Source of the DNA: a virus | IMG/VR virus record: IMGVR_UViG_3300020448_000025 | Span: 1-31,123 of that record | Reading direction: 5' to 3' (one strand) | DNA: 31,123 bases | Shown here: one piece after another, positions 4,236 through 26,494 of the stretch | How positions within the stretch are numbered: the first letter of the stretch is position 1 | How the letters are laid out: each line of letters starts with the position of its first letter | The notes under the pieces: generated by a model | What the model saw: only the letters and a program-made list of their open reading frames with translations | Database searches by the model: none | What the model was told of the DNA's origin: nothing | Translations under genes and position numbers: made by a program

Positions 4236-4425
4236 TGCTAGACAAAAGTTTCCTTTTAGTATAGAATGTAAGAACCAAGAGAAGTTAAATGTATATGATG
4301 CTTATGCTCAGGCAGAAGCAAACTCAGGAGACCACGAGCCTATCCTGTTTATGAAAAAGAATCGTAAGAAAGCTCTTGCTGTTGTTGATGCCGAGTGGTT
4401 TATAAAAAATTATGGCAGTCCATAG
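4090..4425 (+). CDS. PD-(D/E)XK-type endonuclease / resolvase-like protein
   Basis: 111-aa basic protein with a compact PD-(D/E)XK nuclease pattern. It has an N-terminal helix KGRLFQQWVRDMLIEE, then GGED with Asp43, then the E-x-K pair Glu59/Lys61 in IECKNQ, then a helix with YAQAEAN. This layout resembles small Holliday-junction resolvase or VRR-type nucleases; the exact family is uncertain. ATG 4090 is chosen because the KGRLFQQW helix is usual for such nucleases, even though it forces a 146-base overlap with purN. A start at the internal Met20 would shorten but not remove the overlap. Confidence 0.75.
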   Translation: MKPQSAKAKGRLFQQWVRDMLIEERNIHPEDIESRSMGAGGEDLIMARDARQKFPFSIECKNQEKLNVYDAYAQAEANSGDHEPILFMKKNRKKALAVVDAEWFIKNYGSP

Positions 4426-5017
4426 TATGTTTGAAGTCCCTATCGTTCACTACGAGATAGCGAATTGGGATTTGAATAAGAAGAAGATATTAGATGCACT
4501 CCCACCAGAGTGTGAAGAGCATGCAGATGCTCAGGACAATGGATTGTTCACAGATTTCTTTGTGAATGCTAAGGAAGGATCAACTGATCTACCTGAGTAT
4601 GGAGAGACAATAATCAGTGTGATTAAACCATACCTTGCTGACTTCTCTAGTCAGAGGAGGGTAGAGTTTACTGACATGTGGTACCAAAAGTATTACAAAG
4701 GGGTACAACATCAGGTGCACACTCATGGGCACAGTGGATGGTCCTGTGTAATGTATGTGGAGTTTGATCCACAGGTTCATGAACCTACTCAATTCTATTC
4801 ACCATTTAAGAATCCTTGGAATGGTAACCTAGAGACCTTCCAACCTCCTGTAAATGAGGGAGACATGGTAATCTTTCCTGCAACTGTAATGCATGAGGCA
4901 CCTGCAAATAGATCAGAGAAGAGAAGGACTATAGTATCATTTAATATCAGAGGTCATGTAGATGTAGTGAAGTATAAGTTATGGGAAGGTGATCCTATCA
5001 GGGTGGTGTCCTCATGA
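4412..5017 (+). CDS. 2OG-Fe(II) oxygenase family protein (1 of 8)
   Basis: Putative 2-oxoglutarate/iron(II)-dependent dioxygenase, about 200 aa, single cupin-like domain. The first metal motif is HTHGHSGWS, with His103 and His105. The second is PATVMHEAP with His161, and the 2OG-binding Arg is in RRTIVSFN (171-172). FP before the distal His and SFN near the end are typical of the 2OG-FeII_Oxy_5 type. Substrate unknown. An alternative start at 4427 (MFEVPIVHY) lies just after the nuclease stop and is nearly as good. The stop overlaps the next oxygenase start (ATGA). Confidence 0.8.
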   Translation: MAVHSMFEVPIVHYEIANWDLNKKKILDALPPECEEHADAQDNGLFTDFFVNAKEGSTDLPEYGETIISVIKPYLADFSSQRRVEFTDMWYQKYYKGVQHQVHTHGHSGWSCVMYVEFDPQVHEPTQFYSPFKNPWNGNLETFQPPVNEGDMVIFPATVMHEAPANRSEKRRTIVSFNIRGHVDVVKYKLWEGDPIRVVSS

Positions 5018-5568
5018 CATTCAATTTATTCCCTGTGCCTGTAGAGTATATTCCTAACGCAGTAACAGACTTAGAGATCTTTTACTTGCAGAAAAAGATT
5101 AAAGAAATTAAGCACATACATCATCAATCTATTAAGGGTAATGGTTTCAGCACTCATAATCCTCATGAGACATATCCATTACTCAGTCAGGACATACACA
5201 TTAAACTACAGTCCTATCTTGATGAGTATAATAATAAGGTAGGCAACGTCCCTAGTCTTATAACATATACTTGGTCTAACATACAGCACAGGGATAGTAT
5301 ACTTAAGGAGCACTGTCATCCACAGTCTCTTGTATCGGGTGCTCTCTATATAAATGTAGATGATAAGCAAAAGATATATTTCCATAACCCTAACCCATAT
5401 GTTTACTCCTCACCTAGAGAGAAGATCACTCCATATAATATGGAGCATCAATTTATTAAGGTTAATAAGGGAGACCTACTATTGTTTCCAAGTTGGTTGA
5501 GACATGGTAAGGATGATGAGGTAAACAATATGGATGATAGAACAGTAATTAGTTTTAATGCGACATGA
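5014..5568 (+). CDS. 2OG-Fe(II) oxygenase family protein (2 of 8)
   Basis: 184-aa paralogue of the preceding gene, beginning MTFNLFPVPVEYI, the usual N-terminus of this family. Metal motif EHCHPQSLVSGALY with His100/His102, distal His164 in FPSWLRHG, and 2OG-binding Arg176 in RTVISFN. It overlaps its neighbours on both sides by 4 bases (ATGA), so three oxygenases in a row form one coupled block. Substrate not predictable. Confidence 0.82.
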   Translation: MTFNLFPVPVEYIPNAVTDLEIFYLQKKIKEIKHIHHQSIKGNGFSTHNPHETYPLLSQDIHIKLQSYLDEYNNKVGNVPSLITYTWSNIQHRDSILKEHCHPQSLVSGALYINVDDKQKIYFHNPNPYVYSSPREKITPYNMEHQFIKVNKGDLLLFPSWLRHGKDDEVNNMDDRTVISFNAT

Positions 5569-6179
5569 GTATACCCGAAGAGTTTACAGTTTATAAAGAG
5601 TTACTTTGTAAGAAGGGCACAGACTTTGTATGGGGTAGACAGATACCTGACGAGGTATGCGATCACCTCATAGAATTTTGGGAAAACCAAAAATTCTTAC
5701 GTGTCCAACCAGGACAGGTGTATGCTCAAGGTGATGTTACTACTAACCATGAGCTCAAAGAGTCTATGGATTGTATAATACCTCATCAGGTAGCAATGCC
5801 TCACATCCAAGACTACCTTACTGAATTGCAGGGAGTGTTGGAGGACTATATAAAAGAGTTTCCTTTCTGTAATACTTCTAGGTTTCAAATCGTTGAACCT
5901 TTGAGTATGCAATGGTATCCTAAAGGTGGTGGGTTTAAAGAGTGGCATACCGAGAGGTTGAATGCTCTACCTGGTACTGCCTTTAGACACCTAGTCTTTA
6001 TGACATACCTTAATGATGTACCCGATGGTGGTACAGAATGGTATCATCAAGACCTTTACGTACCAGCAAAAAAAGGTTATACTGTTATATGGCCTGCTGA
6101 TTGGACTCATTTCCATCGTGGAAGAGTTAGTCACACGTCAGAAAAGCAAATCATAACTGGTTGGTTTGCTTATGTCTGA
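5565..6179 (+). CDS. Prolyl-4-hydroxylase-type 2OG-Fe(II) oxygenase (3 of 8)
   Basis: 204-aa oxygenase of a different subtype from its neighbours. The first metal motif is EWHTE (His128, Glu130), a conventional HxD/E. It is followed by FMTYLNDVPDGGTEW, which strongly resembles the prolyl-4-hydroxylase fold (YLNDV..GGET.F). The distal His is in ADWTHFHRG (182 or 184) and the 2OG salt-bridge residue is Lys194, as in P4H enzymes. Hydroxylation of a peptide or amino acid is possible but unproven. Ends the three-oxygenase block. Confidence 0.82.
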   Translation: MSIPEEFTVYKELLCKKGTDFVWGRQIPDEVCDHLIEFWENQKFLRVQPGQVYAQGDVTTNHELKESMDCIIPHQVAMPHIQDYLTELQGVLEDYIKEFPFCNTSRFQIVEPLSMQWYPKGGGFKEWHTERLNALPGTAFRHLVFMTYLNDVPDGGTEWYHQDLYVPAKKGYTVIWPADWTHFHRGRVSHTSEKQIITGWFAYV

Positions 6180-6188
6180 GGAAGTACT

Positions 6189-6383
6189 ATGAAAGACCAA
6201 GGGGCAATCCCAAAAGAGGGACAGGATGAATGTTTTAATCGAGCACTCGATATCTTCATTGAATCTGTCCATAAACCTGACGATTCACTACGCTCTTGTG
6301 CACACAACCAAAAGTGCTATAATGAACTGATGTGGATTCGAGATGACATTATCGATCACTTAAACACACTACGGAGAAAGTAA
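6189..6383 (+). CDS. 64-aa unknown protein
   Basis: Small soluble, mostly helical protein with three Cys (DECFNRA, RSCAHNQKCYN) and a charged C-terminal helix. Starts 9 bases after the oxygenase block and abuts the next gene exactly (stop 6381-6383, ATG 6384), so it is in the same operon. No family recognised. Confidence 0.75.
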   Translation: MKDQGAIPKEGQDECFNRALDIFIESVHKPDDSLRSCAHNQKCYNELMWIRDDIIDHLNTLRRK

Positions 6384-6719
6384 ATGACTTGTGGATTACA
6401 TGGAAAATTAGATACTGCTATCACAGCAGTAAAGGAAGCACTAACAGCAGCACTGGACGGTGACTTCACGGATAAAGACTTAGAGGATATCCTCTCAGCA
6501 TATAATACTCTTAAGTCTGTTAACAAAGGACTAGGGCATCATGATACAGGTATCACATTCACACCTGACTCTACGTTAGAAGATGCAATAACATTCAATG
6601 ATGATATCAATATTGATACAAGCAATGCGACATACGCAGCAGGACCAGTAAATTTTGACCTCGCATCCTATGGGAATGATGTCATAACTTTTGGTGATGA
6701 CATTAATAACGATTCCTAA
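6384..6719 (+). CDS. 111-aa unknown acidic protein
   Basis: Acidic protein with an Ala-rich helical N-terminal half (TAITAVKEALTAAL) and a C-terminal half built of loosely repeated DAITFNDDIN- and DVITFGDDIN-type segments, which look beta-rich or disordered. The two ITF(N/G)DDIN copies are an internal repeat about 42 residues apart. Begins at the base after the previous stop. Last gene before the hli promoter. Function unknown. Confidence 0.75.
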   Translation: MTCGLHGKLDTAITAVKEALTAALDGDFTDKDLEDILSAYNTLKSVNKGLGHHDTGITFTPDSTLEDAITFNDDINIDTSNATYAAGPVNFDLASYGNDVITFGDDINNDS

Positions 6720-6749
6720 TGGAGGTGTAGGTATCAACACCTAGTGGGC

Positions 6750-6778
6750 TTGACGGAATTTTATCTTTGCTATATAAT
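6750..6778 (+). promoter_or_regulatory. Near-consensus sigma70-type promoter for hli genes
   Basis: TTGACG (6750-6755), 17-base spacer, perfect TATAAT (6773-6778). The transcript would start near 6785, about 25 bases before the hli ATG at 6810. Host RNA polymerase could use it without phage factors, fitting early or light-responsive expression. The palindrome GTAACGTTAC (6782-6791) and the inverted pair TTAAC/GTTAA lie at the start site. Confidence 0.8.
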
Positions 6779-6809
6779 TATGTAACGTTACTTAACATAA
6801 GTTAACACG

Positions 6810-7019
6810 ATGACACAATCAGTGGCAAAACGGTACACAACTACCGAATCAGGTGGAAGGCAAAACATCTTCCCAACTGAACCAAGAATCGAAGTCGATT
6901 ACGACGCAGACTATTGGAAAAATGCTGAGTTACTCAATGGTCGCCTTGCGATGATTGGACTAGTAGCAGCAGTAATCAACTACTCCATCTTTGGATGGAT
7001 CATACCTGGATTTGCGTAG
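6810..7019 (+). CDS. hli: High-light-inducible protein (Hli/HLIP)
   Basis: 69-aa one-helix chlorophyll-binding protein. The signature ELLNGRLAMIGLVAAV is intact, including the Glu, Asn and Arg that bind pigment and pair helices in this family. After it comes a short hydrophobic tail ending IIPGFA. The N-terminal ~35 residues are polar. The family protects photosystems and dissipates excess energy in the thylakoid membrane; phage copies are thought to keep host photosynthesis running during infection. It has its own strong promoter and is followed 47 bases later by a second, shorter Hli. Confidence 0.95.
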   Translation: MTQSVAKRYTTTESGGRQNIFPTEPRIEVDYDADYWKNAELLNGRLAMIGLVAAVINYSIFGWIIPGFA

Positions 7020-7066
7020 TCGAACGCAGGTCTCTTTAAATTTCTACCCCTAACAATCTAAGAAAA

Positions 7067-7174
7067 ATGACACCAGAAGCAGAAAAGTTTAACGGATGGG
7101 CAGCCATGATTGGTTTTGTCGCAGCAATAGGTGCTTACGTTACCACAGGACAAATCATTCCTGGAATCTTCTAA
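7067..7174 (+). CDS. hli: Short high-light-inducible protein
   Basis: 35-aa minimal Hli consisting almost only of the transmembrane helix: EKFNGWAAMIGFVAA, then GQIIPGIF. Glu and Asn of the ExxNGR motif are kept but the Arg is replaced by Trp. A similar C-terminal IIPG motif occurs in the first Hli. Probably inserts in the thylakoid and pairs with another Hli or a photosystem subunit. Co-transcribed with the gene at 6810. Confidence 0.85.
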   Translation: MTPEAEKFNGWAAMIGFVAAIGAYVTTGQIIPGIF

Positions 7175-7176
7175 AG

Positions 7177-7184
7177 TATAAATA
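7177..7184 (+). promoter_or_regulatory. T4-type late promoter TATAAATA
   Basis: Exact TATAAATA, embedded in the palindrome AAGTATAAATACTT (7174-7187). It lies 27 bases before ATG 7211, with no other gene between. The bases after it (CTTATTCACAAAAG) closely match those after the TATAAATA at 20385, supporting a genuine late promoter with a shared initial transcribed sequence. Confidence 0.7.
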
Positions 7185-7210
7185 CTTATTCACAAAAGTT
7201 AACAATACAA

Positions 7211-7384
7211 ATGAGCGACTTTACAGCCGCAACAGACAGTATATCACCACTAGTAGCACTCCTCTGGGTATTTTATCCGATGGGTGCTTTAGTCGTAGTT
7301 GAACTACTTCTCCGTGCCATCAACAATGATGATGACGACGATAGAGATGGTGGTAAAATGATACCAGCAACATTACCTACTTAA
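7211..7384 (+). CDS. Small membrane protein with acidic patch
   Basis: 57 aa. One clear membrane helix (SPLVALLWVFYPMGALVVVELLL) is followed by a run of Asp (NNDDDDDRD) and a polar tail. Driven by the late promoter at 7177. First of a chain of tiny, mostly membrane proteins. Size and single helix recall low-mass photosystem subunits, but I see no specific match. Confidence 0.65.
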   Translation: MSDFTAATDSISPLVALLWVFYPMGALVVVELLLRAINNDDDDDRDGGKMIPATLPT

Positions 7385-7388
7385 TACT

Positions 7389-7463
7389 ATGCCTTTTATA
7401 GTTTTTGGTTGCGTCTTAGCCGCAACTGCATTCACTGACTTATCTTGGATGGTAATCCAATGA
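7389..7463 (+). CDS. 24-aa hydrophobic peptide
   Basis: Predicted micro-membrane protein of 24 residues (MPFIVFGCVLAATAFTDLSW...), essentially one membrane helix. Starts 4 bases after the previous stop and overlaps the next start by ATGA, the same spacing used by confirmed genes here. Short length makes it tentative. Confidence 0.45.
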   Translation: MPFIVFGCVLAATAFTDLSWMVIQ

Positions 7464-7699
7464 TCTTCCTAGCAAAACCATCCGTGTATACCTTACCAGG
7501 TACATGGGAGAAGCAACCTTTGATTGAACCTGGTCTTGCTATACCTATAATAATTGGAGTAATTGTTATAGGACTACTAGGTTATGGAATTTACATGACA
7601 TTCGGTAAAGGTAAGGAAGGACTCAGAGATGAGATCGATGAGCATTCTAAGATGCATGAGCTAGGCATAGCACATGGTCATAAACCTAAGAAGACATGA
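7460..7699 (+). CDS. 79-aa membrane protein
   Basis: One strong membrane helix (GLAIPIIIGVIVIGLLGYGIYMTF) follows a ~25-residue N-terminus, then a charged tail (GKGKEGLRDEIDEH) ending His/Lys-rich. ATG 7460 is preferred over the upstream in-frame ATG 7445 because it overlaps the previous stop. Ends in an ATGA overlap with the next gene. Function unknown. Confidence 0.7.
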   Translation: MIFLAKPSVYTLPGTWEKQPLIEPGLAIPIIIGVIVIGLLGYGIYMTFGKGKEGLRDEIDEHSKMHELGIAHGHKPKKT

Positions 7700-7848
7700 A
7701 ACTTCGTCTCCCACGAAAGAAATTATGGTTAGCTGCCTTGAAACTTCAAAGGTGGCCTGTCAAGTGGTGGGATGAGAAGGTGGAAGAGAGAAGAAATAAA
7801 GAAAAGATTCGTAAAGAAAAAGTAGCGAGACTTTATCCTAAAAAATGA
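7696..7848 (+). CDS. 50-aa highly basic protein
   Basis: Very basic, Trp-rich peptide (KLRLPRKKLWLAALKLQRWP, VKWWDEK) with a Lys/Glu/Arg helical tail. Could bind nucleic acid or lie on a membrane surface; neither can be decided. ATGA overlaps on both sides place it firmly in the chain. Confidence 0.6.
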   Translation: MKLRLPRKKLWLAALKLQRWPVKWWDEKVEERRNKEKIRKEKVARLYPKK

Positions 7849-8123
7849 CTTTTATTATAGCAGTAATGTCCTTTGCAAACTTTGTATTCTATCCTCTAGT
7901 GATAGGCACAATCATTGCAGTAATTATTGAGCAAATCTTTAGAGCAACAGGTAACCAAGATGACCCTAACGCAGTACGAAATGTTATACTCTCTATGGGA
8001 ATTAGAAAGTACCTTTATCGCCAAGCATGGCTCTTTAATATTATTTGGTTTGTCGGCTATGCGATCCTTTTATTTGTAGTAAGACCAGGGCAGGGAATGC
8101 CTGATATGATATGGCAGGGTTAG
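7845..8123 (+). CDS. 92-aa two-helix membrane protein
   Basis: Two hydrophobic segments: residues ~2-30 (FIIAVMSFANFVFYPLVIG...) and ~62-82 (WLFNIIWFVGYAILLFVV). They are joined by a polar loop with GNQDDPNAVRN and a basic patch (MGIRKYLYRQ). Start overlaps the previous stop (ATGA). No family recognised. Confidence 0.7.
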   Translation: MTFIIAVMSFANFVFYPLVIGTIIAVIIEQIFRATGNQDDPNAVRNVILSMGIRKYLYRQAWLFNIIWFVGYAILLFVVRPGQGMPDMIWQG

Positions 8124-8209
8124 AAACAACATTAATAACAATTCCTCAAGGGTGGCATCCCCTTCTAGAGCTTGCTCTTATAATTACTATTGGAGTAACG
8201 TTCGGATGA
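8111..8209 (+). CDS. 32-aa hydrophobic peptide
   Basis: Short peptide with an amphipathic start (MAGLETTLITIPQGWHPLL) and a hydrophobic end (LALIITIGVTFG). Overlaps the preceding gene by 13 bases in another frame. Plausible by context (chain of micro-membrane proteins) but too short for certainty. Confidence 0.45.
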   Translation: MAGLETTLITIPQGWHPLLELALIITIGVTFG

Positions 8210-8212
8210 GTC

Positions 8213-8374
8213 GTGTACCGTTTAGAGCAATGTATCAAGGAGGAGTGGATCCCCTTGCAAAAATACAGGAACCTTAGTAGAATGAAAGCTGACTTTCTCA
8301 TGAGCATCAGTAAGATGATGAAGAGAGAGGAAATATTATTGAGAATGGTTGATGAAACTAATCAGATTCACTAG
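8213..8374 (+). CDS. 53-aa charged helical protein (GTG start)
   Basis: Read from GTG 8213, this frame gives a coherent helical protein (YRLEQCIKEEWIPLQKYRNL, then MKREEILLRMVDETNQIH). A GGATGAG Shine-Dalgarno-like sequence lies just upstream. It overlaps the following oxygenase start by 23 bases. Preferred over an alternative of two tinier ORFs (8206-8277 and 8282-8374 from an internal ATG), because one continuous charged helix is more protein-like. Confidence 0.5.
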   Translation: MYRLEQCIKEEWIPLQKYRNLSRMKADFLMSISKMMKREEILLRMVDETNQIH

Positions 8375-8999
8375 TGGTGAGACTTATACTCCTTTCGCAG
8401 CTGCGTGGGAGTATTTCTTTTGTGAAGATGATCTTAAGATACCCCTAGAAGAATTAAAGAAAGAGATATTAGATAAAGAGAAGGGTATAATAGATCAGTA
8501 TGAGTTTGAGGATGACTGGGGTACCAAACTAGGTTCCAAGAGTCTTACTGCTAGATCAAATAAATATAATCTACTCAACTTTGATAGTGCTTTACCATTA
8601 AAGATTGCTATCAAGAAGACACATGATAAATTTATCACAGAGTTGGGTGCACCTGAGATACCTCCAATATATGTCCAGTGTTGGGCTAATGTTATGAGAG
8701 AGGGTGATCAGATAGCAGTCCACTCACATGGTAAGGATCCATATGGATACCTGAGTGGTCATGTGTGTGTCCAAGTTACTGATACTAATACAAACTATTA
8801 TAATCCTTATGGTGGAGACCCTTGGTCATCATCTAACAGTGCAGGTAAGATCACACTCTTCCCTAGTTGGGTTAGTCATGGTACTGATAAGGTAGTGGAC
8901 AATAAAGAAAGGGTCACAATAGCATTTGACATACTAACTGAAGATGGTTACAATAAGATTGTAAAAGATGACATGAAGGAGCACTGGGTTAAGGTATGA
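8352..8999 (+). CDS. 2OG-Fe(II) oxygenase family protein (4 of 8)
   Basis: 215-aa oxygenase of the HxH subtype. Metal motif HSHGKDPYGYLSG with His124/His126; distal His176 in FPSWVSHGT; 2OG-binding Arg187 in RVTIAFD. The N-terminal ~95 residues have no recognised domain. ATG 8352 is used rather than the TTG one codon earlier. It is followed by a small gene, two more proteins with oxygenase motifs and a halogenase, each overlapping the next by 4 bases. Confidence 0.8.
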   Translation: MKLIRFTSGETYTPFAAAWEYFFCEDDLKIPLEELKKEILDKEKGIIDQYEFEDDWGTKLGSKSLTARSNKYNLLNFDSALPLKIAIKKTHDKFITELGAPEIPPIYVQCWANVMREGDQIAVHSHGKDPYGYLSGHVCVQVTDTNTNYYNPYGGDPWSSSNSAGKITLFPSWVSHGTDKVVDNKERVTIAFDILTEDGYNKIVKDDMKEHWVKV

Positions 9000-9268
9000 A
9001 TGAAGACTATCGAATGGAGCAGAGACTAAACGAGAGGAAGATCTGTTTAGGATGCTTCGCTTCAAAACATATACCTATAACATCAGAGGTCTACCAATTT
9101 TCACACGACTTTGTAGAGAGTGGTCAACTTGATAAGTATATACCTACCAGAGAAGACCCATTACAAGACGAAGTTAATAAGTATGGTGGAGATTATTTCC
9201 AGATGGCATGCCAAGCAATACTAGAAGGGTGGGAGGAGCATAAGAAACGCTTCCCCAATAGAGTATGA
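8996..9268 (+). CDS. 90-aa unknown protein
   Basis: Soluble charged protein with a single CxxC (KICLGCFASK) near residue 17 and a C-terminal helix (MACQAILEGWEEHKKRF). A lone CxxC could be half of a metal site or redox-active; not determinable. ATGA overlaps at both ends couple it to flanking oxygenase genes. Confidence 0.75.
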   Translation: MNEDYRMEQRLNERKICLGCFASKHIPITSEVYQFSHDFVESGQLDKYIPTREDPLQDEVNKYGGDYFQMACQAILEGWEEHKKRFPNRV

Positions 9269-9873
9269 AAGTTATAGTACCTAAAAACTATGGTTGGATA
9301 GAGCATAAACTATATGAGCAGGAGTTTGATCATGTTAAGAGTTGTATTGATATACCATCAGAGTCTAGGATATCTCTTGCAGGTAATATAAAGGAGAGTA
9401 TTCTTCTACAAGATAAGGACAATTGGTTCTTTAATAATACTATTGTCCCATTAATTCAGACTTATACCCAAGAGTTTGGTAACCTAGGTAATAATATACC
9501 TCTTAACCAACACCATCCATATCGTATGAGTGATTGGTGGGTTAACTATCAGAAGCAACATGAGTTTAATCCATTACATTTTCACACTGGCATCTTTAGT
9601 TTTGTGATATGGATTAAGATACCTATTGATTGGGAAGAGCAGAATAAAGATAACCCAAGCAACATGCCATCTAAATCATCCTTTAAGTTTGTTTATACAG
9701 ATAACCTAGGAGAAATTAGATACTATGACTACAACCTAGATGCTAAGGCAGAGGGTGTGATGTTATTCTTCCCAAGTAAACTAAATCATATAGTATATCC
9801 TTTCTACAACTGTGAGGAGGAGAGAGTAAGTGTCTCAGGTAACATCGGAGTTGATACCACTATTAAATTATGA
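9265..9873 (+). CDS. Divergent 2OG-Fe(II) oxygenase-like protein (5 of 8)
   Basis: 202 aa. Keeps the family pattern in weaker form: HFHTG (His105/His107), FFPSKLNHIVYP with distal His175, and Arg187 in ERVSVSGN. The segment after HxH is FSFVIWIKI instead of the SGVYY type, so this is the most divergent HxH member here and may differ in substrate or be impaired. Coupled to oxygenase 6 by ATGA overlap. Confidence 0.7.
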   Translation: MKVIVPKNYGWIEHKLYEQEFDHVKSCIDIPSESRISLAGNIKESILLQDKDNWFFNNTIVPLIQTYTQEFGNLGNNIPLNQHHPYRMSDWWVNYQKQHEFNPLHFHTGIFSFVIWIKIPIDWEEQNKDNPSNMPSKSSFKFVYTDNLGEIRYYDYNLDAKAEGVMLFFPSKLNHIVYPFYNCEEERVSVSGNIGVDTTIKL

Positions 9874-10400
9874 TCACAGATTTATTCCCGACTAAAATAT
9901 ATGAGGCCAAGATCTCAAACTATGACATCATACAGGATGAGTTTGAGACTGTAGAGAAGGGTATCAACTGGCAAAACCTATGGGATACTCATTTTATATC
10001 TGATCCAAATTTTGAAGAGAATATATTACCTTATCATTTCTCACGAGAGTTAAGGAATCATTTATACAATTACACAGGGAGTGATGGTTGGAGTCAACAA
10101 GCATCTTGGATGGCATGTCTGGAACCAGGACACTATGCTCATGCACATCATCATGGACATGCAGATCTATCTGGTGTATACTATTACAAGACTACAGGAG
10201 ATGATGGAGATCTATTCTTCCAGACACCTAACCTAGCATCAACTACTAGTGTATGGTCTAACCAACCACATACTATCTCAATGAAACCAGAGCAAGGCAA
10301 GATAATATTATTTCCAGGTTACTTAATGCATGGTATACGTACCAATACAACACCACATACACGACTGAGTGTATCATTTAATATGAGGTTTGATAGATGA
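9870..10400 (+). CDS. 2OG-Fe(II) oxygenase family protein (6 of 8), next to halogenase
   Basis: 176 aa, starting MITDLFPTKIYEA as usual for 2OG-FeII_Oxy_5. Metal region HAHHHGHADLSGVYYY (His93/His95 best fit the family spacing; neighbouring His residues make it unusually His-dense), distal His154 in FPGYLMHG, Arg165 in RLSVSFN. Its stop overlaps the start of the halogenase at 10397, implying that both enzymes are made together. Confidence 0.85.
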   Translation: MITDLFPTKIYEAKISNYDIIQDEFETVEKGINWQNLWDTHFISDPNFEENILPYHFSRELRNHLYNYTGSDGWSQQASWMACLEPGHYAHAHHHGHADLSGVYYYKTTGDDGDLFFQTPNLASTTSVWSNQPHTISMKPEQGKIILFPGYLMHGIRTNTTPHTRLSVSFNMRFDR

Positions 10401-11860
10401 AGATTGTTATTGTAGGTGGAGGTACTGCTGCATGGATGGCAGCAGCAGCACTCGCTAAGACATTCCCAGAGTATGATATCACCTTGGTAAAGGGTGGTGA
10501 TCCTATTGGGGTGGGTGAATCTACAACACCACACATCAATCAATACCTAAAGTATATGGGTATAGATGACAAGACATTCCTTACAGCAGCGAGAGCAACA
10601 TACAAATCTACTAGTAGGTTTGAAAACTTTACTGAGTTAGGTCATGTCTTCCACTATCCTAATGGTCAAGCACCTGCTTTGAATCTAACTGATGCTACAT
10701 TCCATGACTGGATGTGTGCAAAGGCATTCGGTCAGGATCCACCTCCATTTGCTGATGTCTTTATGCCATTCGTAACGGTGGCAGAAGAGAAGAAGATGCC
10801 ATTAAATAACTCGTTGCTTATTCCATATGATTTATCTAAAGACAGATCGTTTCACATCGACGGAAGTAAATTCTCTGCCTATCTACAAGAAACTTTTTGT
10901 AGTAATGTTAGAGTGGTCGATAGTCAGGTTAAGTCAGTTGGTTATGACGGACAAAGAATATCAGGTGTCTTTCTGGAGAGAGGGCCGTACGATCTCAGGG
11001 CACCGTCAATTGATGCAGATCTCTATCTCGACTGTACTGGGCAAGCATCTACACTAGGTGGTGCTATGACTAGTTGGATGCCATTTGAATCTATTCCAAC
11101 AGACACTGCTATCGTAAGGAAGAGAGATTATATTGATAAAGATAAGGAGATGGTACCATACACCAACGCAAGGGGTATGAGTAGTGGATGGCAGTGGACT
11201 ATCCCAACGTGGGAATATATTTCAGAGGGATATGTATTCTCTAGTAAGTTTCAGACTGAAGAGGAAGCAAAGAAAGAGTTTGGTGAAGGTAAAGTAATTA
11301 AGTTTAGAAATGGTAGACAGAAGGAAGCATGGGTAGGTAACTGTGTGATGATTGGTCTAGCATATAGTTTCATTGAACCATTAGAATCTACCTCATTATT
11401 CTCAGCACATCATGGTATCCTTGCTCTTGTTGATAGTTTGAAGGAGGAACCTGGTATCAATCAGTTTATGAGAGATAGATTCAATCACAATATGAATGAG
11501 CACTGTGATGGATGGAAAGAGTTTGTTGAAGCACACTATTATTATTCTCGTAGGATAGACACACCATTCTGGGAGCATGTGACACAGAATACAAGGTATG
11601 AACTTCAAGGTGCTCACGATCTAGTCCAGTTTCACATGGTAGGGGGTGATCCAGTTCAACATGAGGCACACCCCATACTTTACATTTTGGGCGGAGCAGG
11701 GTATACTAGTGTTAGGAGGAGATCATATCAGTACTTCAACTACCCATCAGTACCCTCTAGTAAGGTTGACGGATGGAAACATCTTTACAATAAGAGAAAG
11801 AAGTTAGCTGAGTCTCTACCTACAATGTATAAATATCTAAAAGAAAACTACTTCTCATGA
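10397..11860 (+). CDS. Flavin-dependent (tryptophan-type) halogenase
   Basis: 487-aa FADH2-dependent halogenase. FAD-binding GGGTAAW at the N-terminus; GVGESTTPHI near residue 38; the catalytic Lys candidate is Lys70 in ATYKSTSRFENF. The signature GWxWxIP is present as GWQWTIP (264-270), and the active-site Glu330-Ser331 lies in EPLESTS. Enzymes of this family oxidise halide to hypohalous acid, which reacts through the Lys with an aromatic substrate. A cyanophage member, VirX1, has been reported to iodinate many substrates in vitro; this protein is probably related. No flavin reductase is seen nearby, so the host would supply FADH2. Preceded by a coupled 2OG oxygenase. Confidence 0.92.
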   Translation: MKIVIVGGGTAAWMAAAALAKTFPEYDITLVKGGDPIGVGESTTPHINQYLKYMGIDDKTFLTAARATYKSTSRFENFTELGHVFHYPNGQAPALNLTDATFHDWMCAKAFGQDPPPFADVFMPFVTVAEEKKMPLNNSLLIPYDLSKDRSFHIDGSKFSAYLQETFCSNVRVVDSQVKSVGYDGQRISGVFLERGPYDLRAPSIDADLYLDCTGQASTLGGAMTSWMPFESIPTDTAIVRKRDYIDKDKEMVPYTNARGMSSGWQWTIPTWEYISEGYVFSSKFQTEEEAKKEFGEGKVIKFRNGRQKEAWVGNCVMIGLAYSFIEPLESTSLFSAHHGILALVDSLKEEPGINQFMRDRFNHNMNEHCDGWKEFVEAHYYYSRRIDTPFWEHVTQNTRYELQGAHDLVQFHMVGGDPVQHEAHPILYILGGAGYTSVRRRSYQYFNYPSVPSSKVDGWKHLYNKRKKLAESLPTMYKYLKENYFS

Positions 11861-12978: not shown

Positions 12979-14061
12979 ATGACAACTCTAACTCGTAAAG
13001 AGCAAGGATTGCTGTCAGGATGGACCGAGTTTTGTGAGTGGGTTACAAGTACAAACAACCGCATTTATGTTGGTTGGTTTGGAGTTCTTATGATTCCTTG
13101 CTTGTTAGCTGCTGCTACTTGCTTCATCGTGGCATTTATTGCTGCTCCTCCCGTAGATATCGACGGGATTCGTGAACCAGTTGCTGGTTCATTCTTATAT
13201 GGTAACAACATCATCTCTGGTGCTGTCGTTCCATCTTCCAACGCTATTGGATTACATTTCTACCCTATATGGGAAGCTGCCACACTAGATGAGTGGTTGT
13301 ATAATGGTGGTCCTTATCAGTTGGTTATCTTCCACTTCCTTATTGGAATCTCTGCCTACATGGGTAGACAGTGGGAGTTATCATATCGTTTAGGTATGAG
13401 ACCTTGGATCTGTGTTGCATATTCTGCACCAGTATCTGCTGCGTTTGCTGTATTCTTAGTCTATCCATTCGGACAGGGGTCATTCTCTGACGGAATGCCA
13501 CTAGGTATATCAGGTACATTCAACTTCATGTTTGTATTCCAAGCAGAGCACAACATATTAATGCACCCCTTCCATATGGCAGGTGTAGCAGGTATGTTTG
13601 GTGGGTCACTCTTTAGTGCTATGCACGGTTCTCTTGTTACTTCTTCTCTAATCAGAGAGACAACAGAAACTGAGTCACAGAACTATGGTTACAAATTTGG
13701 TCAAGAAACAGAGACCTACAACATCGTTGCTGCTCATGGATACTTCGGTAGATTAATCTTCCAGTATGCATCATTCAACAACTCAAGAAGTTTACACTTC
13801 TTCCTTGCTGTATTCCCTGTGGTCTGTGTATGGTTAACCTCTATGGGTATCTGTACAATGGCATTCAACCTTAATGGATTTAACTTCAACCAAAGTGTCG
13901 TAGATGCTAACGGTAAAGTTGTTCCTACATGGGGTGACGTGCTTAACAGAGCAAACTTAGGTATGGAAGTAATGCACGAGCGTAATGCTCATAACTTCCC
14001 ACTTGATTTAGCATCTGCTGAGTCAACTGAAGTTGCATTAACCGCACCTAGTGTTGGCTAA
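12979..14061 (+). CDS. psbA: Photosystem II reaction-centre protein D1
   Basis: 360-aa D1, complete and uninterrupted (no intron or homing endonuclease). It binds the chlorophylls, pheophytin, QB and manganese cluster of photosystem II in the thylakoid. Key residues (numbered one above the usual scheme) include Gln131 in YMGRQWELS (the Gln130-type variant), TyrZ162, Asp171 and His191 in [11 protein letters not shown]. The C-terminal [13 protein letters not shown] provides the Mn ligands, followed by a 15-residue extension cut off after Ala345. The phage copy replaces photodamaged host D1 during infection. It has its own promoter, structured leader and terminator. Confidence 0.99.
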
Positions 14062-14084
14062 TTCCTATACATATGTTATAGTTG

Positions 14085-14109
14085 GAGGGTCTAACGACCC
14101 TCTTTTTTT
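14085..14109 (+). terminator. Intrinsic terminator of psbA
   Basis: Perfect 7-bp stem GAGGGTC (14085-14091) / GACCCTC (14096-14102), 4-base loop TAAC, then seven T. It ends 2 bases before the next start codon (14112), leaving no room for a separate promoter or ribosome binding site there. Confidence 0.93.
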
Positions 14110-14111
14110 AT

Positions 14112-15284
14112 ATGAAAGTAGCAATCATCGGAAAAGGATTAGCAGGTATACTAACTGCAATGGCATGGAAAGCACACGTCCCTTCCTCCGAGATAGAAAT
14201 TTATTACGACCCCGATGCACCTATTGAACCTGTAGGGTCGGGGTCATGGCCTAATCTGTTAGATCTTATCACACAGTTTGAAGAGAGATCACCAGAGTCT
14301 TGGTCATCTATTGGTCCTATGTTGTATAATAATTGGCGAGATGCCAAGTGGGATCAAACAGTTAAGACAGGTATAAGTTACAGTGGATGGGGTGGTAAGG
14401 ATTGGTTCCATGACTTCGGTATTAACAGAGTGGCAATGCACTTTGATCCTAAGATGTTTTGTGATGACATGTCACAATACTTTAAGTGCATCCCTAAGAA
14501 GGTAGGATATAATATTGATGCTGATTACATCTATGATTGTGGAGGGTCACCCTTCAGTGGAAGGGAGTGTTCAAGTGAGTCATGGGATCGTTATACACTG
14601 CTGCAAAATCCCCTCAACAGAGTACTACTGGCCGAAACTGACCCATATACTAGAGTCTATTGCACCACTGATAATGTTGCCACTAAAGATGGTTGGTGTT
14701 TTGTTATCCCACTACAGAGTAGGACATCAATGGGATATCTTTTCAACAGTGACATCACAACTGATGAAGAGGCACTAGAGAATTTTCATGAGCAGTTTGG
14801 TGAAGCAAAGGTAACTGGTTGGAGATCATTCCATAACTATTGTGCAAAGAATCCTGTCATGGATGGTAGGATCTTTATGAATGGAAACAAATACTTCTTT
14901 ATTGAACCACTAGAAGCAACAAGTATTACAGGATATATGGTGTGGATTGAGAGAACCTTGCGTTATATTATGCAAGGTGCTAGTATACAAGAGATGGTTG
15001 CAGATAATCAGCGAGACATCTGTGAGAATGCTAACTTCCTTCTCTATCATTATGCACATGGATCTAAGTATGACACACCCTTCTGGGACTATGCTAAGAG
15101 TCTTTGGAAACCTACTGATACTTGGAATAATATATTAAAGGATGCAAAGCAAGGTAACTGGAAGCATAGGGTGCAAGGCACAGCATATAATTACAGTTAC
15201 TTTAGTTTCTTATCAGTCATTGCTACCTACTGCAACATGGAAACACAACAAGACTTCAAGTCTTTATTAAGGAATAATTGGTAA
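14112..15284 (+). CDS. Second, divergent flavin-dependent halogenase-like protein
   Basis: 390-aa relative of tryptophan halogenases, about 100 aa shorter than the one at 10397. N-terminal FAD motif GKGLAG; candidate catalytic Lys85 in TVKTGISYSGW; EPLEATS with Glu268 in place of EPLESTS. The GWxWxIP signature is altered to GWCFVIP (194-200), with the second Trp replaced by Phe, and GESTTP is replaced by GSGSWPN. It may be a halogenase with different substrate or halide preference, or a related flavin monooxygenase. ATG 14112 gives the family N-terminus MKVAIIG; upstream codons in this frame are the terminator. Confidence 0.78.
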   Translation: MKVAIIGKGLAGILTAMAWKAHVPSSEIEIYYDPDAPIEPVGSGSWPNLLDLITQFEERSPESWSSIGPMLYNNWRDAKWDQTVKTGISYSGWGGKDWFHDFGINRVAMHFDPKMFCDDMSQYFKCIPKKVGYNIDADYIYDCGGSPFSGRECSSESWDRYTLLQNPLNRVLLAETDPYTRVYCTTDNVATKDGWCFVIPLQSRTSMGYLFNSDITTDEEALENFHEQFGEAKVTGWRSFHNYCAKNPVMDGRIFMNGNKYFFIEPLEATSITGYMVWIERTLRYIMQGASIQEMVADNQRDICENANFLLYHYAHGSKYDTPFWDYAKSLWKPTDTWNNILKDAKQGNWKHRVQGTAYNYSYFSFLSVIATYCNMETQQDFKSLLRNNW

Positions 15285-19555: not shown

Positions 19556-19799
19556 TCTGGAGGAGAAGTATGGGTCTTACATAGGAAGTAGTAAGACTTT
19601 TAAAATTGATGGAGTAAGAGAACCAGTAACAGGGTATGGATACCACTGTGATGGGTCAGATATAAAAGGTTACTGGGTTAACACTCGTAACTATAAATTA
19701 TTCTACAATTTGAATGAACAATTCATTAAGATGGTACCATTAAATGACGTGGAATATACAGAACCTATTTCCAAAGCCCCTAGCATCGTCGAAGATTAA
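19548..19799 (+). CDS. 83-aa unknown protein
   Basis: Starts at ATG 19548 inside the previous stop region; the upstream in-frame ATG 19518 is less likely. Small Gly/Tyr-rich, beta-like protein (GYGYHCDGSDIKGYWVNTRN). Its last 56 bases are also the start of the following oxygenase in another frame. No family recognised. Confidence 0.65.
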   Translation: MINLEEKYGSYIGSSKTFKIDGVREPVTGYGYHCDGSDIKGYWVNTRNYKLFYNLNEQFIKMVPLNDVEYTEPISKAPSIVED

Positions 19800-20337
19800 T
19801 CCAGAGGTCTGTGACATTCTTACTGAGATGTTACAGGACTATGATTTCTCAGAGGATGAGGGTGGACTGAGTGCTGTTACTGTTAATAAGCATGTCTTAC
19901 AAAACAAAACAGCAGTCCACGACTACCTTTATAGGAAGGTGCGACAGGTTATATGTGAGTTAGGATATCATTGTGATGTCCAGATCACTACCTCTTGGTT
20001 TACTGCTACACTTAGTGGTGGGTCAGCAGATGAGCATGCACATTGCAACTCTTGGTTTTCTGCTGTAGTATATTTTGATGAGTATGATAAAGATACTTCT
20101 CCAATCCAGTTTGTAAACCCTCCACAAGGGGTCTACGTGAGTCCTTCACAGGACAATGATTATAATGCTACGGATGAGGTTATAGTACCTGAAAAGGGTA
20201 CTATATTATTGTTCCCTAGCAATGTAAGACATCGAGTGTTAAAGAATTACTCTCAGTATGAGAGATACTCACTAGCATTTAATGTGTTACCAAAAGGTTA
20301 TGTAGATGTAGGTGATTCATCCTACATGTATCAGTGA
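19744..20337 (+). CDS. 2OG-Fe(II) oxygenase family protein (7 of 8)
   Basis: 197-aa member of the HxH group. N-terminus MTWNIQNLFPKPL is family-like. Metal motif EHAHCNSWFSAVVYF (His98/His100), distal His163 in FPSNVRHRV, Arg174 in ERYSLAFN. It sits after the giant virion-like gene rather than beside a halogenase, so a virion-protein substrate is conceivable but speculative. Overlaps the preceding gene by 56 bases. Followed by a late promoter and terminator-flanked gene. Confidence 0.83.
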   Translation: MTWNIQNLFPKPLASSKINPEVCDILTEMLQDYDFSEDEGGLSAVTVNKHVLQNKTAVHDYLYRKVRQVICELGYHCDVQITTSWFTATLSGGSADEHAHCNSWFSAVVYFDEYDKDTSPIQFVNPPQGVYVSPSQDNDYNATDEVIVPEKGTILLFPSNVRHRVLKNYSQYERYSLAFNVLPKGYVDVGDSSYMYQ

Positions 20338-25200: not shown

Positions 25201-25868
25201 TGTTTAATTATGTTGGTCCTGCTAAACCTCTTGAGGAGGTTGAGAGTAGGACCCTTGACTCTGGAAGATTCTATAAGATAGATGACAGATGGTGTCCTAG
25301 TGTCACCACAGTGTGTGGAAACCAATCGAAGCATGGTATACTAGCATGGCAGAAGCGTATTGGATTTGCTGAAGCAGAAAAGATCAGACGATCATCTGCA
25401 TGGCGAGGCACACAGTACCATAACTTAGTGGAGAAGTATCTTAAAAATGAATTGGAAGAAGATAAGAAGAGCGAGGGTCTTCCCACATACCTTTTTAGGT
25501 CTGCTCGTGAGACTCTTGATAGGATTAATAATATTCATGCTATTGAAGCCCCTCTTTTTTCTCGTAATTTATTTCTGGCTGGTCGTGTTGATGCTATTGC
25601 TGAGTTTGATAGGGAGCTTGCTATAATAGATTTCAAGACCACAAAGAATCTTAAAAAGGAAGAGCACCTTGATAAGTTCTTTGTCCAAGAAGCAGCGTAT
25701 GCTTACATGTATTACGAGCAGACTGGTGTAGAGGTTGACAAACTTGTTACAATATCAGTAGCAGAAGACGGAAGCATGCAAGTGGTAGAAAAGTATGATA
25801 AAATACCATACATAGACACTCTTATTGATTGGATAAGAGACTATCACAATGAGAAAACTGTAGCATGA
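25200..25868 (+). CDS. RecB/PD-(D/E)XK-type exonuclease
   Basis: 222 aa with the full set of RecB-like nuclease residues: His74 in GTQYHNLVEKY, Asp131 in AGRVDAI, Asp144 and Lys146 in AIIDFKTTK, and Gln163 in the QEAAYAYMY helix. Such proteins act as single-strand exonucleases in phage recombination, or in degrading host DNA. No helicase or Fe-S cysteine cluster is present, so it is the minimal form. Overlaps the following oxygenase start by ATGA. Confidence 0.85.
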   Translation: MFNYVGPAKPLEEVESRTLDSGRFYKIDDRWCPSVTTVCGNQSKHGILAWQKRIGFAEAEKIRRSSAWRGTQYHNLVEKYLKNELEEDKKSEGLPTYLFRSARETLDRINNIHAIEAPLFSRNLFLAGRVDAIAEFDRELAIIDFKTTKNLKKEEHLDKFFVQEAAYAYMYYEQTGVEVDKLVTISVAEDGSMQVVEKYDKIPYIDTLIDWIRDYHNEKTVA

Positions 25869-26494
25869 AGCAGGAAGTATTAGGTATCCCTTTCTTTAAG
25901 TTTGATATTAATCCAGACAAGATTGAGGAGATTGCTAAGATACTTACACTCCTACCTTGGAGAGAGAATGACACCAATCTAATTTGGGAAGGTGTTAGTC
26001 TTGATGGTCAAGGAGGTAGTGACCTCTATAAGAACCCAGACCTCGCCTATCTTTTCGACTGGATGCAAGACTGCATGGCCGAAGTGTGTGATGAGATGGG
26101 TATACCGAATAAATTGGTATGTAATGCTGCATGGGCAAATCTAAATAAAAAAGGTGATTGGTTTTACGACCATACTCATTCCAACTGTTTCATGAGTAGT
26201 AATTACTTTGTATCGGGTAATAGTGGTACTACTAAGTGGTATTATCCTAACCCATATTATGATAAGAGTAACATCTGGCCCTTTAATTCTAAGGACTGGG
26301 ATGATAAATTTAATCTAACTCATGAAGAACCAACTGTACCTGGTAGGTATATGGTTTTTCCACCTACTATTAGACACAGAGCTACCCCTAACAATGGTAC
26401 TTGTGATAGAATAACAGTAGCAGCAAATTGGTTCCCGACAGGGATCATCAACTCAAGTGGTGTATCCCACCTTAACATTCAGGTTATACAATGA
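25865..26494 (+). CDS. 2OG-Fe(II) oxygenase family protein (8 of 8)
   Basis: 209 aa, HxH group. Metal motif DHTHSNCFMSSNYF (His103/His105), distal His171 in FPPTIRHRA, Arg182 in DRITVAANW. The first ~90 residues contain a Trp/Asp-rich segment not shared with the others. Placed between a RecB-like nuclease and the late transcription factor gp33, all with 4-base overlaps. Substrate unknown. Confidence 0.82.
   Translation: MKQEVLGIPFFKFDINPDKIEEIAKILTLLPWRENDTNLIWEGVSLDGQGGSDLYKNPDLAYLFDWMQDCMAEVCDEMGIPNKLVCNAAWANLNKKGDWFYDHTHSNCFMSSNYFVSGNSGTTKWYYPNPYYDKSNIWPFNSKDWDDKFNLTHEEPTVPGRYMVFPPTIRHRATPNNGTCDRITVAANWFPTGIINSSGVSHLNIQVIQ

Follow-up and report, generated by a model that had tools for sequence, protein, structure and literature searches.

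We found that seven small, closely packed genes (positions 7211-8374), lying behind two genes for high light inducible proteins (Hli) in cyanophage DNA, encode a protein with a PsbN domain and members of two families that also occur beside hli genes in Prochlorococcus. We propose that these genes form a late-promoter-led operon for the assembly or repair of photosystem II (PSII), which would aid the phage D1 and Hli proteins, and we give this reading a probability of roughly 0.6. We read the cassette as a PSII assembly/repair kit because D1, Hli and the PsbN-domain protein share the same assembly stage. The window, i.e. the whole stretch of DNA that was analysed, is an entire IMG/VR record of 31,123 bases. 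Its gene content (psbA, heme oxygenase, formyl transferase and several 2OG-Fe(II) oxygenase genes) is that of a T4-like cyanophage, for which Prochlorococcus is the most likely host.

The genes of the region all lie on the forward strand. The first Hli (69 aa, 6810..7019; phrog_178, E 1.6e-22) scored 23.9 bits against the Pfam family Chloroa_b-bind (cut-off 22.3), and it is followed by a short Hli of 35 aa (7067..7174; phrog_178, E 8.7e-20). The cassette itself comprises p1 (57 aa, 7211..7384; phrog_7843), which ends in an acidic DDDDD-GGK tail; p2 (24 aa, 7389..7463); p3 (79 aa, 7460..7699), which carries the PsbN domain; p4 (50 aa, 7696..7848), a very basic soluble protein (pI 10.9, net charge +13); p5 (92 aa, 7845..8123; T4-GC285, phrog_10609), a two-helix membrane hairpin; p6 (32 aa, 8111..8209; T4-GC594 family, phrog_17067), a short hydrophobic peptide; and p7 (53 aa, 8213..8374), a soluble protein with a GTG start. 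Hydropathy analysis gave one helix in p1, p2, p3 and p6 (marginal in p6), two in p5 and none in p4 or p7, i.e. five membrane peptides among the seven proteins. Four-base ATGA overlaps join p2 to p3, p3 to p4 and p4 to p5, a 13-base overlap joins p5 to p6, and the 3' end of p7 overlaps the next gene, an oxygenase. This layout reads as that of a translationally coupled operon. The initial annotation had described just such a row, with exact coordinates and sizes, mostly overlapping and placed directly after two Hli genes, in which most proteins have one or two helices and one is very basic, and all of this was borne out.

Elsewhere in the window, psbA (12979..14061, forward strand; Pfam Photo_RC, 290 bits) encodes the PSII D1 protein, the presumed client of the cassette. 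It is flanked by two genes resembling flavin-dependent tryptophan halogenases at 10397-11860 and 14082-15284 (Pfam Trp_halogenase, 273 and 96 bits), and 2OG-Fe(II)-oxygenase-like genes occur at 4412-6179, 8349-8999, 9265-10400, 19744-20337 and 25865-26494, four of this list being confirmed by Pfam and the others identified by eye. A scan of positions 6000-9000 for RNA families returned a single weak match (22.1 bits versus a cut-off of 35), which we dismissed as chance.

To consider these ORFs as genes we relied on their relatives. Scans of IMG/VR with p3 (34 loci), p5 (best 80 of 316 loci) and p1 (33 loci) provided 147 loci, which were merged into 86 groups by shared 200-base words, and the group counts given hereafter are conditional on loci having been reached through p1, p3 or p5. 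All seven ORFs recur in the same order in the closest related contigs. Including the loci of isolates, the numbers of distinct proteins are 45 for p1, 39 for p2, 54 for p3, 2 for p4, 85 for p5, 43 for p6 and 7 for p7 (a few p1 and p3 entries being incomplete); five of the seven families thus count dozens of members, and p4 and p7 are found in close relatives. The median dN/dS ratios, calculated on the commonest length of each family after exclusion of pairs whose synonymous changes were saturated or very few, were 0.13 for p1 (6 sequences), 0.35 for p2 (35), 0.14 for p3 (8), 0.05 for p4 (3), 0.11 for p5 (51), 0.30 for p6 (16) and 0.15 for p7 (3). These values point to purifying selection on all seven ORFs, including the 24-aa p2, the estimates for p4 and p7 coming from three sequences each. 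The recurrence in related contigs and the purifying selection together confirm that the seven small ORFs are genuine genes.

The T4-type late-promoter motif TATAAATA occurs at 7177..7184 on the forward strand, 34 bases 5' of the p1 start. This T4 late motif has been described for cyanophages too (PMC2984593); a late promoter of this type would have NATAAATA at promoter distance and be bound by the phage protein gp55. Of 29 groups, 11 have the motif in the 60 bases preceding p1, at a distance of 29 to 43 bases, versus 57 of 8326 background tiles, and it precedes p2 in 1 of 29 groups, p5 in 0 of 60, the PsbN gene in 0 of 38 and p6 in 0 of 29. The number of motifs in the window as a whole is not enriched (4 versus 2.59 expected). 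Among isolates, P-SSM7 also has the motif before p1; P-SSM2, P-HM2, P-TIM68 and S-SSM7 have CTAAATA in its place; and in P-HM1 and P-SSM4 p1 starts right where the hli gene ends. We infer that the motif at 7177 is a putative late promoter of the cassette, which would then be expressed late.

The PsbN domain of p3 had been missed by the initial annotation. p3 scored 29.8 bits against the Pfam family PsbN (PF02468), above the cut-off of 25, and all 41 aligned members of its family matched PF02468 at E ≤ 0.1. Because it reached 28.3 bits against the NCBI PsbN equivalog model, far under the 70-bit cut-off, we term p3 a PsbN-domain protein only, and not a proven equivalent of host PsbN. It has the form of PsbN, namely a single N-terminal helix and a C-terminus that is hydrophilic and conserved (in the structural model, of overall pLDDT 73, the helix spans residues 24-48; the conserved stretch spans residues 43-62). 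About 40 residues align with host PsbN, covering the single helix and the following GYG/GFG...FG...L.D....H stretch. In contrast to host PsbN, p3 exceeds the usual length of about 43 residues by two added segments, VYTLPGTW at the N-terminus and MHELGIAHGH at the C-terminus, whereas 25 host ORFs (L164-L188) and the host psbN of Prochlorococcus sp. AG-418-C09 (L162) terminate at the H-[DE]-D of the core. Among 54 distinct phage PsbN sequences, HE[LM]GIAH follows the core in 49 and an N-terminal L[PS].TW segment is present in 33. The VYTLPGTW segment appears to behave like a movable module, because in S-SSM7 it forms part of an otherwise unrelated peptide with a single helix, T4-GC646, encoded beside gp45 (L156, 2001-2168).

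A possible PsbN in phages has been published since 2010 (PMC3037559), as T4-GC163 of Prochlorococcus cyanomyoviruses; PsbN is also annotated in P-TIM68, and psbN was listed among the most abundant photosynthesis genes of viromes in a 2021 survey (PMC8940887). T4-GC163 resembles p3 by its PF02468 domain and conserved core, the P-SSM7 member being 58% identical across 99% of p3. It differs by its location, among replication or tail genes in P-TIM68 and P-SSM7, whereas p3 lies in an hli cassette. A phage-type PsbN with LPGTW also occurs on a 188 kb contig of the flavobacterial assembly of Nonlabens xiamenensis (L160), where its neighbours are, by eye, terminase-like and tail-sheath-like phage genes; this sequence looks like cyanophage DNA within a flavobacterial assembly.

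According to a review (PMC4823308), PsbN is not a PSII subunit; in tobacco it is needed for joining pre-D1 to pre-D2 in the reaction centre and for recovery from photoinhibition, and its C-terminus is on the stroma side. In Synechocystis, PsbN seems non-essential, the psbH psbN double mutant being no worse than the psbH mutant (PMC4823308), and because of this resemblance PsbN may be dispensable in cyanobacteria. The likeness of p3 is to a PSII assembly factor. The initial annotation had instead compared the sizes of the seven proteins with those of low-mass Psb, Psa or Pet subunits. This comparison did not hold: Pfam scans of the family members (39 for p1, 37 for p2, 61 for p5 and 39 for p6) gave no meaningful match, the profile check against small Psb, Psa and Pet subunits yielding a weak PsaO_TMD match in 2 of the 61 p5 members (best E 0.029), and we rejected p1, p2, p5 and p6 as structural Psb, Psa or Pet subunits.

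p5, which is 74% identical to PSSM2_290 and 70% identical to PSSM7_226, both labelled T4-GC285, is assigned to T4-GC285. In 2010, GC163 (the possible PsbN) and GC285 were reported to be the only two genes both universal in, and exclusive to, the T4-like phages isolated on Prochlorococcus (PMC3037559). The exclusivity of GC285 may no longer be strict, because S-TIM4, isolated on Synechococcus WH8102, holds a copy of p5 with 33% identity. In the window, p4 alone separates the PsbN-domain gene from p5. This nearness is not general, because, of 60 groups, 15 have a PsbN gene whose end is no more than 1 kb upstream of p5 and 5 have one whose start is no more than 1 kb downstream, and because psbN and p5 are far apart in P-SSM7. 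In P-SSM2, P-SSM7, P-SSM4, P-HM1 and P-HM2, no more than about 2 kb separates p5 from psbA, and in P-RSM4 and P-RSM6 the two genes are not close to each other over the stretches examined. The AlphaFold2 model of p5 (pLDDT 86) is a hairpin of two helices (residues 2-35 and 41-78), and a fold search in the PDB gave no match with E below 1 (best E 2.4).

For the host side we searched the 201 genomes of the family containing Prochlorococcus sp. AG-418-C09. No p5 relative came from a scan of genome contigs, and the p5 family search found one in a single genome of the 201, a Prochlorococcus single-cell assembly, where it lies on contig C3. We read contig C3 as phage DNA because it bears a phage-type psbN, and the p5 family looks phage-only. 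So does the p2 family, for which 3 of the 201 genomes matched at E ≤ 0.1 (all about 0.05), one of these matches being contig C3. This contig of AG-418-C09 (L161/L163/L208) carries a phage-type psbN, hli, p1, p2, p6, p5 and a psbA-like gene, and the same single-cell genome has a separate host psbN; AG-418-C09 was probably an infected cell.

By contrast with these two phage families, p1 and p6 are common to phage and host: the p1 profile matched 63 of the 201 genomes (8 of them weakly only, with best E values of 1e-4 to 1e-3) and the p6 profile matched 61, although some matches of either profile may sit on phage contigs inside single-cell assemblies. The host copies match the same phage PHROGs, phrog_7843 for p1 and phrog_17067 for p6 (the latter was matched by 31 of 39 p6 members at E ≤ 0.01, and by the p6 of the window at 0.031), and NCBIfam assigned no family to the host p1 and p6 copies. 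It is worth noting that hli is present in 25 of 40 host p1 regions and p6 in 22 of 40, versus 0 of 20 for both in control regions of the same genomes picked blind to content. The commonest host order is hli, p6, p1. Fourteen of the 40 regions lack both hli and p6; 13 have p1 alone and one has an additional weak p5-like match. p1 and p6 thus resemble unnamed Hli-linked proteins rather than structural subunits, and the proposal that the cassette acts on thylakoids is supported as regards the PsbN domain of p3 and the p1 and p6 genes kept with hli by the host, but not as regards the likeness to structural subunits.

The p1 family is not wholly new, its member in Prochlorococcus MED4, PMED4_15491, having been described already as a transcribed short ORF that occurs in numerous Prochlorococcus and is absent from other cyanobacteria (Steglich et al. 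2008, PMC2518516). The phage homologues named in that paper, PSSM4_181 of P-SSM4 and PSSM2_278 of P-SSM2, are p1 loci, but the passages of the paper on this ORF make no mention of a link to p2, p6, PsbN or p5. Our literature search on locus tags and T4-GC numbers, supplementary files being outside it, returned PMC3037559 and PMC2518516 only. In a tree of p1 built from 83 rows and 66 columns, two changes of the phage label are required, and one group of eight host rows is placed among phage rows, a hint of phage-to-host transfer from which, given the short alignment and the many open forks, we draw no direction. Two host micro-proteins (L230, 2762-2893; L212, 6580-6753) have a p1-like DDDDxDGG end on a different helix, and p1 would be, with them, one of a broader family of membrane peptides with acidic tails.

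The host copies bear directly on a second suggestion of the initial annotation, that the peptides might help lysis by acting on the envelope. Small size, single helices and a possible late promoter are what one would expect of holin- or spanin-like proteins acting at the end of infection, but p1 and p6 are retained in host chromosomes beside hli, where a holin would do harm, one cassette gene has a PsbN domain, and scans against PHROGs and Pfam found no holin, spanin or endolysin family. We consider a lysis function, which thus finds no support, highly improbable.

In four host genomes (L194-L197), a gene for a PTOX-type alternative oxidase lies about 120 bases 3' of p1 on the same strand (54.3 bits against PF01786 for the L194 oxidase, the other three having been read by eye). 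This arrangement would suit a different role, in which the small membrane peptides would act on electron flow (PTOX or cyclic) around the plastoquinone pool and not on PSII assembly, with PsbN brought into the row by chance shuffling. The rise of both host hli and PTOX in the light during infection by P-HM2 (PMC5082946), and the position of PsbN, which differs between contigs, fit this role as well; the PTOX neighbour of p1 and the rise of hli and PTOX also count in favour of the PSII reading. However, in the larger set of 40 host regions around p1 the link to PTOX was found once, in the L194 genome, the linkage to hli being far commoner, and the Pfam scans of p1, p2, p5 and p6 revealed no quinone- or haem-binding family. 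We therefore regard a role in electron flow as quite unlikely, and, since PTOX accompanies p1 in one host group only, we rejected it as the chief partner of this protein.

The order of the genes across relatives has to be weighed in the same manner. The closest contigs keep the order of the window, but 14 arrangements occur in 31 groups. In addition, p4 and p7 are confined to close relatives, and Prochlorococcus-enriched genes have been placed in hot-spot regions (PMC3037559). The cassette could be a loose set of hypervariable-region genes devoid of a common function, the nearness of hli reflecting a shared insertion hot spot. This is at variance with the constancy of part of the set: in groups where p1 is followed by 400 bases or more, p2 follows p1 within 150 bases in 27 of 30 and p6 lies within 1.2 kb of p1 in 27 of 30 (p5 in 14 and the PsbN gene in 13 of the 30). 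Furthermore, hli and p6 are also near p1 in the host. In the phage groups with 400 upstream bases, an Hli motif was found within about 500 bases upstream of p1 in 21 of 26, as judged by a simple search pattern, which is bound to overlook some Hli. A shared hot spot as the sole explanation seems unlikely to us.

We thus favour the PSII assembly/repair operon, which could operate as follows. First, the late promoter at 7177 would drive the row of overlapping, translationally coupled small genes. Second, the PsbN-domain protein p3 would help unite newly made, phage-encoded D1 with D2 during the building or repair of the PSII reaction centre. Third, the Hli proteins encoded upstream would work at the same PSII assembly stage as p3; in this respect, a role of Ycf39-Hlip complexes, together with chlorophyll supply, at an early step of PSII assembly has been reported (PMC4823308). 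Fourth, p1 and p6 would be small thylakoid proteins common to phage and host, the normal companions of Hli under light stress. Fifth, p5 and p2 would be phage-made membrane partners, p5 probably of the PsbN-domain protein. More tentatively, the cassette might encode a dedicated device for assembling the PSII reaction centre, in which the PsbN core is extended on both sides of the membrane, by VYTLPGTW in the lumen and by MHELGIAHGH in the stroma. There, p5 would be a phage-only two-helix partner, p1 and p6 would make up, in host cells too, a so far unrecognised complex associated with Hli, and the 24-aa phage peptide p2 would be encoded by one of the smallest conserved phage genes. The PsbN extensions, together with p2 and p5, are the least explained parts of the cassette.

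PSII assembly in infected Prochlorococcus touches the energy supply of the phage, and its discussion usually focuses on D1, D2 and Hli. The cassette adds five further small-protein families, two of which are common to host hli clusters, including a conserved 24-aa gene, p2, that is present yet unannotated in the isolates P-SSM2 and P-SSM7. It offers a testable reason, PSII assembly with the help of Hli, for GC163 and GC285 being the reported hallmarks of Prochlorococcus phages, and it suggests a virus-built kit for sustaining photosynthesis during infection. Cyanophage photosynthesis gene cassettes, among which are photosystem I cassettes, are one of the closest known systems. Like those containing psbA and hli, the present cassette groups host-type photosynthesis genes in a phage, and it differs from them in that nearly all of its members are unnamed and shorter than 100 aa, two of the families looking phage-only.
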